Assembly: GCA_012523595.1 (NCBI GenBank)
Contig: JAAYIG010000212.1
Coordinates: 1-64,000 of the forward strand
DNA length: 64,000 nucleotides
Source of the DNA: Fibrobacter sp.
Lineage (GTDB): Bacteria > Fibrobacterota > Chitinivibrionia > Chitinivibrionales > Chitinispirillaceae
Direction: 5' to 3'
The position numbers and the translations under genes were made by a program. Below are positions 58,695-63,942 of this stretch, one piece after another; position 1 is the first letter of the stretch, and every line of letters begins with the position of its first letter. Under the pieces are notes generated by a model. The model had not been told where the DNA came from. It was given only the letters and a program-made list of their open reading frames with translations, and made no database searches.

Positions 58695-60605
58695 CTACTG
58701 CCTTTTCAATAGCGGAACTATAGATAACAGTTTTACTACCATCAGCGCGGCAACCACTCCCTGAATATCAAGCAGCGGAAACAGGATCACCGGCCCGGAG
58801 GCCATCCCTATTACCCCGCCAGCCAGATCCGAGGCATTGAGTTTTCCGAACTCAACTGATCTGCGGGTCACGAACTGCGCTCCGGCAATAATACCCATCA
58901 AAGCATTGAATAACAGAAATAAACCAAGCGGCGGATAACTGAGTTTTGTCAAAAGTAAAAGACTCAAACAGGCATACAGACCCACAACAAGATCAGAAAA
59001 CGGGAATCTTCGGAATAAACTTCCGAGCACGAATCCTCCGGTCATGGCTATCATCAGCAGAGGTAATCTGGAGTAAAGCATCCCGTAGAGGGACTGGTAA
59101 AGAAGCATCAACCCTATTGAATACACTCCAGCAACAAACCCCGTTGAACCCACAGAGAGATCCGGAACTGAACGCATGAAAAAAAGCAGAATCACAACCA
59201 TTATGAATACTGCTGTGGAAATGAGAAGAACTGAAGATACCTCAAATTTATCAAGATATCTCTTGATGGAAAAGATAAGCAGTGAGGATAAACCTTTTGT
59301 CCCGGACTCATCAGAGAATGACTGCCGGTTCGCGGCAACAATTTTTTCAGGTGTAAGGGACGGCAGTATGAAATTTTTATAATACGGTGCATCGACAGGA
59401 CACATCAAAGTAAAATCAAAGGGCTTGTCAGAGGCCACAAAGGTATACCCCTCGCCGGGAAAGATCTTGACGTTCTTAAAAACAGCCGAGAGGGTTCTGA
59501 CCGTAAAATCCCTGATCTGTTTCTCCTCTTTGGACAGATATTCGGAATTGAAGTGAAGTGTAAAAGAAAGTGCCCCGGTATCTGTCATATTCATCTTCAT
59601 CCTGTGAAAGAAGGATTCTGTGAAAAAACGGCTTTCCGAGAGATTCTCAGGGATACTCACCCCTGAGATGACCACATCGAATTTCTGACTGAAACTGTAA
59701 GTTTCCGGAGAGCCGCAACTGCACTTTTCATCTGCAAGGGAGGGATTATGTTCCAGACAGGTCAGTTCCGTACCTGTGTACTTTCTTATTTCTTTTGAGT
59801 GCCCCTGATCCTGTATAAGCAACACACGGACTGGCGATGAAAACAGTGACATCGGAACATGAACAGCCTGCTCAACCGAGGGACGGGGAACAGCAGTGCG
59901 GTAAAGATGATTATTGAGCAGGACAGTCTCTTTATTCTCGGTATATGCTATCTCTCCTTCCGGGCCGTAAAGCACATTGGTAAACCCTGATGGATATTTC
60001 CATTGCCGTGATGTGCCGTCAAAAACGAGAGCAAAAACAATCAGTGCCGCTGATCCAGAAAAGCAGATCCGGTTTGGAAAAACAAAAGGAATCATGGAAC
60101 ATGAAACAGCTGCGGCCATAATCATATTCGGAACTCCGGCAAGGATTGCGGCTGCAGAGAGAAGTAATCCCGCAAATCCTCCTGCATTTTCGAACCTGTA
60201 AAGTCTTCTTCCATCATTTTTCCCGGAAAGTGCCCCGTAAACAAAGCCGGAAAAAAAAGAGAAGGGTACAATTGAAAGAAGCATCACCGCAACCGCGACT
60301 TTGATTGAAAGCTCCTCTCCGGGTGGGAAAAAAGTTTTTACAGAACGGATAATAAAAATGCCGGAAAAGAACAATGCTATCAAAAGTAAAGAGGTGGTGT
60401 CTGTACGAAGTTTATCCGCTTTACAGCCTGTTTTGCTCCCGAAAGCTGCAGCGAGAAGCCAGAGAGAGATGAAAAAACCAAGGATAAGCTCGTTACCTGA
60501 AAAAACAGACAGGAACTCCCGAATGAGGATAATCTGGGCAACTGCGGCAAAAAAGCCGCAGGAACCGGAAAATAAAAACGGATGCTCCTTCCGGAAAAAA
60601 ATCAT
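58695..60605 (-). CDS. spermidine-synthase-like polytopic membrane protein
   Basis: 636 residues. Six or seven N-terminal spans (10-205) begin with GSCGFFAAVAQIILIREFLS and SGNELILGFFISLWLLAAAFGS, the typical start of membrane-fused spermidine-synthase-like proteins. A soluble Rossmann-like part (about 225-420) shows VRVLLIQDQGHSKEI, TCLEHNPSLAD and FDVVISGVSIPENLS; the catalytic Asp of the canonical vDltDP motif is absent. Seven more spans follow (450-630). The start overlaps the MEMO1/AMMECR1 stop as ATGA, so it belongs to that operon. Probably not a polyamine synthase. Confidence 0.82.
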   Translation of the reverse strand: MIFFRKEHPFLFSGSCGFFAAVAQIILIREFLSVFSGNELILGFFISLWLLAAAFGSKTGCKADKLRTDTTSLLLIALFFSGIFIIRSVKTFFPPGEELSIKVAVAVMLLSIVPFSFFSGFVYGALSGKNDGRRLYRFENAGGFAGLLLSAAAILAGVPNMIMAAAVSCSMIPFVFPNRICFSGSAALIVFALVFDGTSRQWKYPSGFTNVLYGPEGEIAYTENKETVLLNNHLYRTAVPRPSVEQAVHVPMSLFSSPVRVLLIQDQGHSKEIRKYTGTELTCLEHNPSLADEKCSCGSPETYSFSQKFDVVISGVSIPENLSESRFFTESFFHRMKMNMTDTGALSFTLHFNSEYLSKEEKQIRDFTVRTLSAVFKNVKIFPGEGYTFVASDKPFDFTLMCPVDAPYYKNFILPSLTPEKIVAANRQSFSDESGTKGLSSLLIFSIKRYLDKFEVSSVLLISTAVFIMVVILLFFMRSVPDLSVGSTGFVAGVYSIGLMLLYQSLYGMLYSRLPLLMIAMTGGFVLGSLFRRFPFSDLVVGLYACLSLLLLTKLSYPPLGLFLLFNALMGIIAGAQFVTRRSVEFGKLNASDLAGGVIGMASGPVILFPLLDIQGVVAALMVVKLLSIVPLLKRQ

Positions 60606-62044
60606 TCCTGAAAGTGTTCTGCAGTATAGGTCCTGACTTCAGATGTTTTCCAACCGTCTCTGGCCATTCCCCCCTTCATCGATAAATGCTCAAGGAACAT
60701 TATCTTATCAGGGAGCTGTTCCCAGACCTGTGGAAGAAATGTCGAATGGTAAGGGCCTTTCTGAAGTATCACACCGTGAACACCGGGCTTTAACTTCTGC
60801 AGCAGATCATCCGGGGTCTTAAACTCAAGAGGCACAGGGTTACTAAGCACCGATACTTCGACATTGATTTTTCCAAGTTCATCCTGTCTGACAGGAGAGA
60901 ATCTTGGATCACTCAGAGCAGCACTTCTGGCATTGTCGATTACAGCCTGATAAAGAGGTTTGATGGGCTCAATATAACCGATACATCCGCGCAAATTCCC
61001 GTTTATTGTGAGTGTCACAAAGCAGCCGCTGCTCTTTTTCAGAGCTGATGGAACACTGTCTACAACCGGTGGCTTCATCCCTTTCACCGCCAGTACCATG
61101 CTCTCCCTCGCCAGATTGAGAAGATATTTCTTCAATTCAGGAGACAGGGATGACTTTTCAGAACTGATTTCCTTTTTGATTGTACCGGATTCAATCCAGG
61201 CAATGGAGGCGTAGCCGACAACCTTCGACTCAGAGCCATAAGATGGAGCTGTTTCAAAGGATGTCCGCGCATCGAGTTTAACCGGCTTCAGGCCCATTTT
61301 CCGGCCAAGGTGCATTACTATCCGTACAGGAGTCTCTCCGCATCCGTCAATAAACCCCATTGCATCACCAGAAAGTATAGTTTCAATACTCCTGTCATCG
61401 ATGCGGCGAGCTTCCTTTTGATGCTGATAGTGGGAGAGATCGGACGAAGCAATAACCAGGGTCTCTTTATCGATGAGAGGAAATAAAAGTTCGGCAGCCT
61501 GGGCCGGATCAATTCGCCCTGTGATGATGGGCAAAAATGTAAACTGTCCCAGCTTCATTTGCAGAAACGGCAACTGTACCTCTATGCAGTGTTCCGGATC
61601 CTCTGCTCCCCGGGCTGAACACACAAGCGGACTCTTTTTCAGCCTGTCCCTGAGATCCTGATCAACCTTTACTTTTCCAAGAGGAGTTTCATACCATGTT
61701 GCGTCAGTGACAGCCAGTCCATTTATCAAAGCATGATGGGATGGGCCGATAATGATTACTTTCTTGACATTTTTATCTATGGCGGCGAATCCTTTTCCTG
61801 CAACGGGTCCCGAAAAGACATACCCCGCATGCGGAGATACAAGCAGACGTGCGGGCGCTTGGAGCTGGCTGGCTCCTGCAAAATAAGTCTCCAGTTCCTT
61901 TTTAAGCGCAGAGGGATTGGCAGTATAAAACTGCCCCGCAACAGCAGCTTTTCTTATTACATCCGCGGCTTGCAGCCCGAATAGTCCAGCCATCAGCAAC
62001 ACTCCTGAAATGTATCGGTAAATATGGAAGACACGTTTATTCAT
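60602..62044 (-). CDS. MEMO1-AMMECR1 fusion (AmmeMemoRadiSam proteins B and A) with signal peptide
   Basis: 480 residues from ATG at 62044, overlapping the radical SAM stop as ATGA. Residues 1-26 form a Sec-like signal (GVLLMAGLFGLQAAD). MEMO1 domain (30-285) resembles extradiol dioxygenases: VSPHAGYVFSG (His72), GPSHHALINGLA (His103/104) and CGETP (Cys235) occupy the positions of the human MEMO1 metal ligands His49, His81 and Cys244. AMMECR1 domain (300-478) carries LRGCIGYIEP and DPRFSPV. Biochemical function of the trio is unresolved. Export signals are not the expected form for this family. Confidence 0.9.
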   Translation of the reverse strand: MNKRVFHIYRYISGVLLMAGLFGLQAADVIRKAAVAGQFYTANPSALKKELETYFAGASQLQAPARLLVSPHAGYVFSGPVAGKGFAAIDKNVKKVIIIGPSHHALINGLAVTDATWYETPLGKVKVDQDLRDRLKKSPLVCSARGAEDPEHCIEVQLPFLQMKLGQFTFLPIITGRIDPAQAAELLFPLIDKETLVIASSDLSHYQHQKEARRIDDRSIETILSGDAMGFIDGCGETPVRIVMHLGRKMGLKPVKLDARTSFETAPSYGSESKVVGYASIAWIESGTIKKEISSEKSSLSPELKKYLLNLARESMVLAVKGMKPPVVDSVPSALKKSSGCFVTLTINGNLRGCIGYIEPIKPLYQAVIDNARSAALSDPRFSPVRQDELGKINVEVSVLSNPVPLEFKTPDDLLQKLKPGVHGVILQKGPYHSTFLPQVWEQLPDKIMFLEHLSMKGGMARDGWKTSEVRTYTAEHFQE

Positions 62045-63129
62045 GCCCAGACCCCTGGAATGGCAGTCCCGCACTTGCCGCAGGAACCGGATTTAAGATT
62101 ACGGTTATTAATCACATAGCCGGATCTTGAAATCAACAGTTCGCCACAAGATAAACAGTACGTATTAGAATCCATTTCCATCACATTTCCAATATAAACA
62201 AATTTTAACTTTTCCTCCAACGCGATCTTCCTGGCAGACAACAGTACCTCTGATGGAGTGGGATAAAGATGGGCAAGTTTATACAATGGGAAAAATCTGG
62301 AAAAGTGCAGCGGAACCTCAGTTCCCAGTTCCTTCGCGATCCATCTGCACATCGAACGTATCATCTCAAGTTTGTCTGTCCATTGGGGAACCACCAGGTT
62401 TATTATTTCCACCCAGACGCCCTTTTTACGTGCCAGTTTAAGCGTATCAAGCACCGGCTGCAGCTTACCGGCGTTGAGATCCTGATATACCCTGTTGTCA
62501 AAGCTCTTGAGATCTATGTGCGCAGCATCGATCAATTCCGCAAGCTCAGAGAACGGTCCCTGATTTATATATCCCGAAGTGACAAGGACATTCTTCAGAC
62601 CGGCTTTACGGGCCAGAGCCGCAGTGTCAAGCACATACTCGATCCAGACAGTCGGTTCTGAATAGGTATAGGCAATGATTTTACAATCATGACTTATGGC
62701 CTCCTGAACCACCTTTTCCGGAGAGAGATTGTAGTTTTCTGTCTCCAGAGGACTTTTCTGACTGATAGCATAATTCTGGCAGTTCTTGCACCGAAGATTG
62801 CACCCCGCAATCGCCAGGGAGAAAGTTCTGGCACCGGGAAGAAAATGGTAAAGAGGTTTCTTTTCAACAGGATCAACGTTTACTGCACAAGGCTGGGAAT
62901 ATCCCAGAGTGACAAGCTTGCCTCCAGAATTCTTCCGGTTGCGGCAGTTACCTGTTTTCCCTTCAGGTAAAACACATCCGTTCGGGCAAAGCTCACACAG
63001 AATACTGTTGCCCATCTTCGACCAGTACCTGGCAGCATGATAACGGGGAGCGGATGCCAAAGAAGGCCCGGCAGCAATAGTGCCTGCCAAAAGAAGAAGA
63101 TCCTTAATAAGTTCTCTTCTGGTCCTCAT
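62041..63129 (-). CDS. AmmeMemoRadiSam radical SAM enzyme with Tat-like signal
   Basis: 362 residues. The start MRTRRELIKDLLLLAGTIAA has a twin-arginine pair and hydrophobic run, followed by an AxA-type site (SLASA). An N-terminal Cys set (Cys45, 48, 52, 62) precedes the radical SAM motif CNLRCKNC (Cys110, 114, 117). SAM-barrel features are AYTYSEPTVWIEY and NLVVPQWTD. The C-terminal zinc-like module has CLSCGE and CGKCGTAIPGVW. PflA-like activating enzymes are the nearest relatives. A radical SAM protein folded in the cytoplasm and exported by Tat would be notable. Starts 2 bases after the zinc-ribbon gene. Confidence 0.92.
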   Translation of the reverse strand: MRTRRELIKDLLLLAGTIAAGPSLASAPRYHAARYWSKMGNSILCELCPNGCVLPEGKTGNCRNRKNSGGKLVTLGYSQPCAVNVDPVEKKPLYHFLPGARTFSLAIAGCNLRCKNCQNYAISQKSPLETENYNLSPEKVVQEAISHDCKIIAYTYSEPTVWIEYVLDTAALARKAGLKNVLVTSGYINQGPFSELAELIDAAHIDLKSFDNRVYQDLNAGKLQPVLDTLKLARKKGVWVEIINLVVPQWTDKLEMIRSMCRWIAKELGTEVPLHFSRFFPLYKLAHLYPTPSEVLLSARKIALEEKLKFVYIGNVMEMDSNTYCLSCGELLISRSGYVINNRNLKSGSCGKCGTAIPGVWA

Positions 63130-63131
63130 CC

Positions 63132-63323
63132 TCAGTAAGCTTCAAAAAAGCGGCTTGAAACACCACCATCACCAATGGGTACTTCTACTCTTTTTCCACA
63201 CCTGGGGCACTGTCCCCTGTAGGATTTCCCCTCTTTACTTTTATAGATTCTGGTGTAAACATTACAGCAGCGGAAATGGATACCCAGAAACTTCTTACCC
63301 TCTGCATCCTTTTCCTGGTTCAT
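63132..63323 (-). CDS. 63-residue zinc-ribbon protein
   Basis: Starts inside the end of nadD (29-base overlap) and stops 2 bases before the radical SAM gene. A Cys pair (CC, 19-20) and CPRC (39-42) in IHFRCCNVYTRIYKS and GQCPRCGKRVEVPIG form a rubredoxin- or zinc-ribbon-like knuckle; GVSSRFFEAY ends it. Likely binds Zn or Fe. Possibly a metal or electron carrier for the adjacent radical SAM system, judged only by position. Tight spacing supports it as a real gene. Confidence 0.72.
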   Translation of the reverse strand: MNQEKDAEGKKFLGIHFRCCNVYTRIYKSKEGKSYRGQCPRCGKRVEVPIGDGGVSSRFFEAY

Positions 63324-63942
63324 GGCTGTATACCTTTCTGTTTCCCATGGAATCCACCCGTGTATTCCTGTAAAGCCCTTTCTTTAAAATATACTCTCTT
63401 ACCTGCTCAGGGATAAGATGACGGCAGGAGAGTCCTTCTTTCAGATACCGCCGGATCATAGTGGAGCTGATTCCCCACTCCGGTGAAGGGAAAGTACGGA
63501 CAGAGGCTTCTTTCAGTTCAGGAGGGATTTTTATCGCATAACCAGGCCGATGAGCTATACACAATTCGACCATCTGTATAATTCTGCGGTACCTGTGCCA
63601 GCCCGGAATTTCAGTAATATTGTCAGAACCAATAATAAAAAAGAACTGCCCATCATACTGCTTTCTGAGCTCATGAAGAGTATCGATTGTATAAGAGTAG
63701 CCGCTGCGATGCAACTCCTCCTCCCGTATCTCTGCACCGGGCTCATTTTTGAGGGCAAGCCGCAACATCGCCAGCCGGTCTTCAGCAGAAGCTGTTACAC
63801 TGTCTTTATGAGGAGGAGAACCGGAAGGGATAAAAAGAACTTTCTGCAGACCAAAAAATTCACGGGCCAGTGAGGCAATCGCGAGATGACCATTGTGAAC
63901 AGGATCGAAAATACCGCCGAGTATTCCGATGTGCCCTGACAT
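63295..63942 (-). CDS. nadD: nicotinate-nucleotide adenylyltransferase
   Basis: 215 residues. GILGGIFDPVHNGHLAIA is the nucleotidyltransferase (HIGH-type) motif; PSGSPPHKD, FFIIGSDNITEIPGWHRY and WGISSTMIRRYL complete the family signature. It adenylylates nicotinate mononucleotide in NAD synthesis, the step after NadC, whose gene lies at 23.7 kb. Residues beyond about 192 extend past the usual end and overlap the zinc-ribbon ORF. GGGGAG precedes the ATG. First recognisable gene of the operon. Confidence 0.95.
   Translation of the reverse strand: MSGHIGILGGIFDPVHNGHLAIASLAREFFGLQKVLFIPSGSPPHKDSVTASAEDRLAMLRLALKNEPGAEIREEELHRSGYSYTIDTLHELRKQYDGQFFFIIGSDNITEIPGWHRYRRIIQMVELCIAHRPGYAIKIPPELKEASVRTFPSPEWGISSTMIRRYLKEGLSCRHLIPEQVREYILKKGLYRNTRVDSMGNRKVYSHEPGKGCRG

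Follow-up and report, generated by a model that had tools for sequence, protein, structure and literature searches.

The window analysed here is a 64,000-nucleotide stretch of a Fibrobacter sp. genome (assembly GCA_012523595.1, contig JAAYIG010000212.1), and it carries at 58695-63942, on the minus strand throughout, an operon built around the AmmeMemoRadiSam system (TIGR04335, TIGR04336 and TIGR04337). This system is already known, and all three of its components occur in the operon over the curated cut-offs; what is new is an export-signalled variant with a fixed membrane partner. The core comprises a radical S-adenosylmethionine (SAM) enzyme of 362 residues (62041-63129; TIGR04337 349 bits against a cut-off of 220), a MEMO1-AMMECR1 fusion (60602-62044; TIGR04336 and TIGR04335 over cut-off, with the start fixed by overlap geometry) and a multi-span membrane protein of 636 residues, termed SPD (58695-60605), which is assigned by its structural model, its loop charges and its co-occurrence with exported radical SAM proteins. 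These three genes are joined by two ATGA overlaps (62041-62044 and 60602-60605). Upstream of them lie nadD, encoding nicotinate-nucleotide adenylyltransferase (63295-63942; TIGR00482 175 bits against 112), and a small zinc-ribbon protein without any family match over cut-off (63132-63323); their reading frames overlap by 29 bases, and two bases separate the zinc-ribbon stop from the radical-SAM start. All of these genes and junctions lie where the original prediction had placed them, and an Rfam search of the 64-kb window gave no match. The sequence comparisons that follow give good support to the core idea of that prediction, namely that the system is directed to the envelope and has a membrane partner.

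What marks this radical SAM protein as a candidate for export? It matches PF04055 over cut-off, and by profile comparison the solved structures closest to it are those of pyruvate formate-lyase activating enzymes (PflA; E 1e-14). With PflA and other glycyl-radical activases it shares the radical SAM core and the CxxxCxxC motif for a 4Fe-4S cluster (C110, C114 and C117; 62779-62802), which is present in 20/20 exported homologues and in 93/93 signalled rows of a larger radical-SAM set. It differs from them in reaching 62 of the 232 bits of the PflA cut-off, in carrying a signal of the twin-arginine translocation (Tat) type, in the extra N- and C-terminal cysteine motifs found in the exported radical SAM proteins, and in that no glycyl-radical enzyme was seen beside it. 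The signal occupies the N-terminus (MRTRRELIKDLLLLAGTIAAGPSLASA; 63040-63129), where a TRRxLxK motif (TRRELIK) precedes a hydrophobic stretch. TatC is encoded in the same genome (G000). A comparison of N-termini found the Tat signal kept in the operon relatives of the order and missing from unsignalled paralogues, which agrees with the predicted twin-arginine export of this enzyme. Across the phylum sample, copies within MEMO-AMMECR1/SPD operons bear TRRxxL-type signals, one copy adjoining SPD has a membrane segment at its N-terminus (L058), and the remaining copies begin near the domain start. Signals were judged by motif, hydrophobicity and homologue comparison, with labels assigned by eye by a labeller who knew the neighbouring genes, and also by a simple automated rule, which called a signal in 79/93 copies labelled signalled and in 1/60 labelled unsignalled.

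The fusion protein appears to be exported by a different route. Its longest open reading frame begins at GTG 62074; the start was set at ATG 62044, since this codon gives the ATGA overlap with the radical-SAM stop and opens a clean, typical signal peptide. Read directly from there, the Sec-type signal (MNKRVFHIYRYISGVLLMAGLFGLQA, followed by AD; 61964-62044) is as had been predicted, and its MEMO homologues within the order likewise have signal-like N-termini. The MEMO1 domain (61199-61954; TIGR04336 232 bits against 26, E 2e-69; human MEMO1 structures E 4e-25) precedes the AMMECR1 domain (60611-61126; TIGR04335 192 bits against 99, E 6.5e-57; 1zq7 E 1e-27). The metal ligands of human MEMO1 are H49, H81 and C244 (PMC11081632). 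The corresponding PHAG, GPSHH and CG motifs all occur in the window protein, where PHAGY and GPSHH align to MEMO1 and CGETP is assigned by motif only, its cysteine lying outside the aligned stretch. The likeness to human MEMO1 and AMMECR1 extends to both domains, whereas the window version is bacterial, fused, preceded by a signal peptide and tied to a radical SAM gene. It is the only MEMO gene in its genome. Elsewhere, MEMO-AMMECR1 proteins carry Sec-type or lipoprotein signals, and when MEMO and AMMECR1 are encoded apart, both have signals of their own in L054, as does AMMECR1 in L039 and L110.

The type of signal on the radical SAM protein follows the export machinery of the host. TatC is missing from 8/11 and 15/17 genomes (23/28) with Sec-like or anchor signals, and from 2/18 and 2/4 genomes (4/22) with Tat-type signals (pooled p 1e-5, in samples that include many incomplete metagenome-assembled genomes (MAGs) and are not independent, because many come from one class). 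A switch of signal type that keeps the direction of export is the pattern that selection for location predicts. Together with the conservation of signals across phyla, this upholds the claim of envelope targeting as far as sequences can speak to it.

Is the membrane protein a true partner? The phylum sample comprised 151 genomes, 37 of which encode a TIGR04337 protein over cut-off, and an SPD match of 270 bits or more was counted as full-length. By this threshold, SPD is present in 20/21 genomes with an exported radical SAM protein, in 1/16 with unsignalled copies only (Fisher 3e-8) and in 0/114 others. Among the 21, one genome (G080) has its radical-SAM N-terminus cut by a contig end; the single SPD among the 16 is a partial match (G002). 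SPD accompanies the exported enzyme even in a genome where the two genes are unlinked (G022). The specificity is limited to the full-length form, as lower-scoring relatives are common elsewhere, including in genomes without the system.

Beyond the phylum, a scan of species genomes yielded 80 loci, a biased set picked by similarity to signalled radical SAM proteins. SPD adjoins the radical SAM gene in Bacteroidota, Desulfobacterota, Ignavibacteria, Omnitrophota, Latescibacterota, archaeal-labelled MAGs and others, with gene order and strand varying across phyla. Where enough flanking sequence was available, SPD lies beside 57/75 signalled and 5/36 unsignalled radical SAM genes (Fisher 5e-10), and two of these five unsignalled copies are paralogues near a signalled one. 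With automated labels the trend is the same (52/66 signalled, 11/49 unsignalled). Within Bacteroidota, unsignalled radical SAM genes lack an adjoining SPD (e.g. L099, L109, L117, L149 and L158), and at some Bacteroidota loci with an unsignalled radical SAM protein the MEMO protein is unsignalled as well. Conserved adjacency and genome-level co-occurrence thus bear out the proposal that the membrane protein belongs to the system.

SPD scores below the cut-offs for spermidine synthases (TIGR00417 20.9 of 249.6 bits; PF01564, Spermine_synth, 18.3 of 22.9 bits). Its AlphaFold2 model (predicted local distance difference test 90.5, predicted template modelling score 0.90) places seven helices before a soluble domain at residues 208-425 (59331-59984) and about seven after it, the last, long one being read as the seventh. 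Foldseek matches the soluble domain to spermidine synthases (E 8e-7) and the membrane part, at weak scores, to MFS-like proteins. The fold is thus that of SpeE and of spermidine-synthase-like membrane proteins; unlike SpeE, the SPD domain sits between two sets of helices, is predicted to lie outside and, in the window's clade, has lost the glycine-rich nucleotide loop. Loops rich in lysine and arginine alternate in the family alignment such that the N-terminus would be inside and, given the helix count, the soluble domain is predicted outside the cytoplasmic membrane; two of the first seven helices are short, and this topology therefore stays a prediction. The nucleotide loop is lost in 14/14 counted SPD proteins of the window's clade and present, by a strict pattern, in 31/60 others. 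We accordingly claim no SAM-feeding role for the window's SPD, and such feeding is not upheld as a general role. A thiol relay was ruled out, no cysteine being invariant across homologues. Among the papers covered by our literature search, none joins AMMECR1 with spermidine synthase, and the name AmmeMemoRadiSam turns up once each in five; a 2019 J Biol Chem article by Burroughs et al. (cited in PMC7159879) is said to treat MEMO genome contexts.

A FastTree phylogeny of 176 radical-SAM domains, with N-termini removed, puts 93/93 signalled and 16 split rows inside one clade of 128 rows (support 95). None of the 48 rows outside was called signalled; three are unclear and the rest unsignalled. 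The window's genome provides an internal control, a second TIGR04337 gene (contig C46:6310-7371, L004) that has no convincing signal, falls outside the signalled clade and has no MEMO, AMMECR1 or SPD nearby on its contig. The window operon belongs to an old, widespread, cross-phylum branch of the AmmeMemoRadiSam system, set apart from the unsignalled copies by its clade as well as by its signals and fixed membrane partner.

In some lineages the module has electron carriers for neighbours. The commonest neighbour cluster of signalled and split loci is a DsbD/CcdA-like family (Pfam DsbD_2), found near 22/93 signalled and 2/60 unsignalled radical SAM genes; such a gene lies between the radical SAM gene and SPD at four loci (L116, L234, L245 and L258), and Omnitrophota-like loci that lack SPD have one following MEMO-AMMECR1. 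A Fer4_5 gene abuts the radical SAM gene at six loci (L111, L121, L130, L134, L255 and L257), mostly with FMN_bind and sometimes with DsbD_2. In one case SPD itself is fused to FMN_bind and Fer4_5 in a single reading frame of 1166 residues (L256:853-4350, minus strand). NosR-type proteins combine FMN_bind with Fer4_5. In some lineages, domains of NosR/PceC-type and DsbD/CcdA proteins are encoded next to the module or fused with it, which is not so at the window operon; they suggest delivery of electrons across the membrane in a minority of lineages. The membrane proteins just upstream of the radical SAM gene in L111, L121 and L134 combine DsbD_2, FMN_bind and Fer4_5. An Omnitrophota-like group (L122, L124, L233, L235, L236, L242 and L249) has the module near pilin-like genes, possibly a hint of an envelope context in that one clade.

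The two upstream genes of the operon fared differently. The zinc ribbon, proposed as a metal or electron helper, and nadD, taken as a member, adjoin the system in relatives of the order only: the zinc ribbon is beside 0/80 loci of the wider scan, and nadD occurs at 1/80, 3.5 kb away. Both were rejected as core parts. We regard nadD as a housekeeping neighbour transcribed in the same direction, with the zinc ribbon outside the core module. Within the order, the zinc ribbon overlaps or abuts nadD in the window and in L040-L043, L045, L048 and L064. Two genes encoding TPR proteins, on the strand of nadD and upstream of it, lie just outside the window (63964-65643 in its numbering; L003), and one of them has a start like that of a lipoprotein; the pair is conserved in relatives of the order, where one member matches YfiO.

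How might such a module work? We consider it moderately likely that the operon is an envelope-facing AmmeMemoRadiSam branch, in which the radical SAM protein, the fusion and SPD act jointly at the outer face of the membrane. The signals, the clade, the partnership and the predicted fold are read from the sequences themselves; from them we infer the actual location, radical chemistry outside, the role of SPD and the substrate. The PflA-like enzyme would probably be folded with its Fe-S cluster in the cytoplasm, after which Tat would carry it across the cytoplasmic membrane to the outer face, with Sec-like or anchor signals serving instead in Tat-less lineages. There it would act with the exported and presumably metal-binding MEMO1-AMMECR1 protein, and with SPD, whose soluble domain, set among about 14 helices, would be on the same side. 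The most likely task of SPD is to dock the enzymes and hold their substrate, and homologues with an intact nucleotide loop may perhaps hold a SAM-like ligand. Such an arrangement would need electrons from across the membrane, which a DsbD/CcdA-like or NosR-like carrier encoded alongside could supply in some lineages. The substrate would be an envelope protein or a membrane lipid.

Several observations weigh against joint action at the outer face. To our knowledge, SAM does not occur outside the cytoplasm, and a 4Fe-4S protein would be an unusual substrate for Sec. The window operon has no electron carrier next to it, nor do most loci, and SPD stands alongside unsignalled radical SAM genes in L125, L232 and L256. 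The wider scan was biased by its selection, as noted above, and a tree-corrected test of the pairing of signal and SPD had no power, with too few independent changes (on the tree, the signalled label switches about four times and SPD adjacency 14 times). In Prevotella-like and a few other loci, MEMO-AMMECR1 is exported and the radical SAM protein unsignalled. Finally, the radical SAM gene is split from its signal at 16 loci that belong to a single phylum-level group, and also elsewhere: an upstream reading frame encodes the signal together with the first conserved residues, and its stop overlaps the ATG or GTG of the catalytic frame. The interchange of ATG and GTG at this start speaks for reinitiation, by which the catalytic domain would be unsignalled. 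Assembly error was rejected for this group, as the split is common to the 16 loci and the start codon swaps between ATG and GTG, and a tie to Tat loss was likewise rejected, TatC being encoded in 15/16 split genomes and in 4/4 others with a split or unsignalled radical SAM. The group is that around L113 (titled Aegiribacteria; L113, L200-L216 and L259-L269), and comparable splits with a different frame offset are seen in L130, L132, L240 and L241. Of the predicted co-export of the whole system, then, the common occurrence of signals on both enzymes stands, and universality does not, given the Prevotella-like loci and the split genes.

The Prevotella-like loci, the catalytic frames with a conserved start of their own and the lack of any known periplasmic SAM are what would be expected if only MEMO-AMMECR1 and the SPD domain faced outward, with radical SAM catalysis kept to the cytoplasm, the site of SAM and reductant, and the signal a tether or a relic lost by several lineages. 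We find this alternative rather unlikely: Tat motifs are kept across phyla, Sec or anchor signals appear where TatC is missing, positively charged N-termini predict an N-in/C-out orientation, and outward electron carriers adjoin the gene. Could SPD be a separate transporter or enzyme sharing the operon by chance with an ordinary three-part system? The weak MFS-like matches, the many lower-scoring relatives in genomes without the system and 18 signalled loci with no SPD nearby would fit, but the near confinement of the full-length form to genomes with an exported radical SAM protein, the unlinked case among them, the varying gene order and strand, and the fusion to electron-carrier domains make it improbable. 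That the signals reflect chance or mis-annotated starts, with no export at all, draws on their having been labelled by eye. This is very improbable, for motif and position are conserved, the automated rule separates the two label sets, and split MEMO and AMMECR1 genes carry signals of their own; the lack of signals in unsignalled paralogues and the change between Tat and Sec with TatC led us to reject it.

What would joint action at the outer face mean for this family? MEMO1 and AMMECR1 are conserved and linked to human disease, and we know of no agreed molecular function for either, nor of an agreed activity for the AmmeMemoRadiSam system. With its fixed membrane partner and recurring electron carriers, an exported bacterial version of such proteins directs the search for the substrate to the envelope, and the question becomes testable. 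Tentatively, and at slightly less than an even chance, this may be a radical SAM family that is active beyond the cytoplasm, has a membrane partner of its own and, in certain lineages, a dedicated transmembrane electron supply (once fused to that partner), and modifies a component of the envelope jointly with secreted MEMO-AMMECR1. If the radical SAM protein truly acts outside, one would have to ask by what path SAM and low-potential electrons get to members of an enzyme class familiar from inside the cell.

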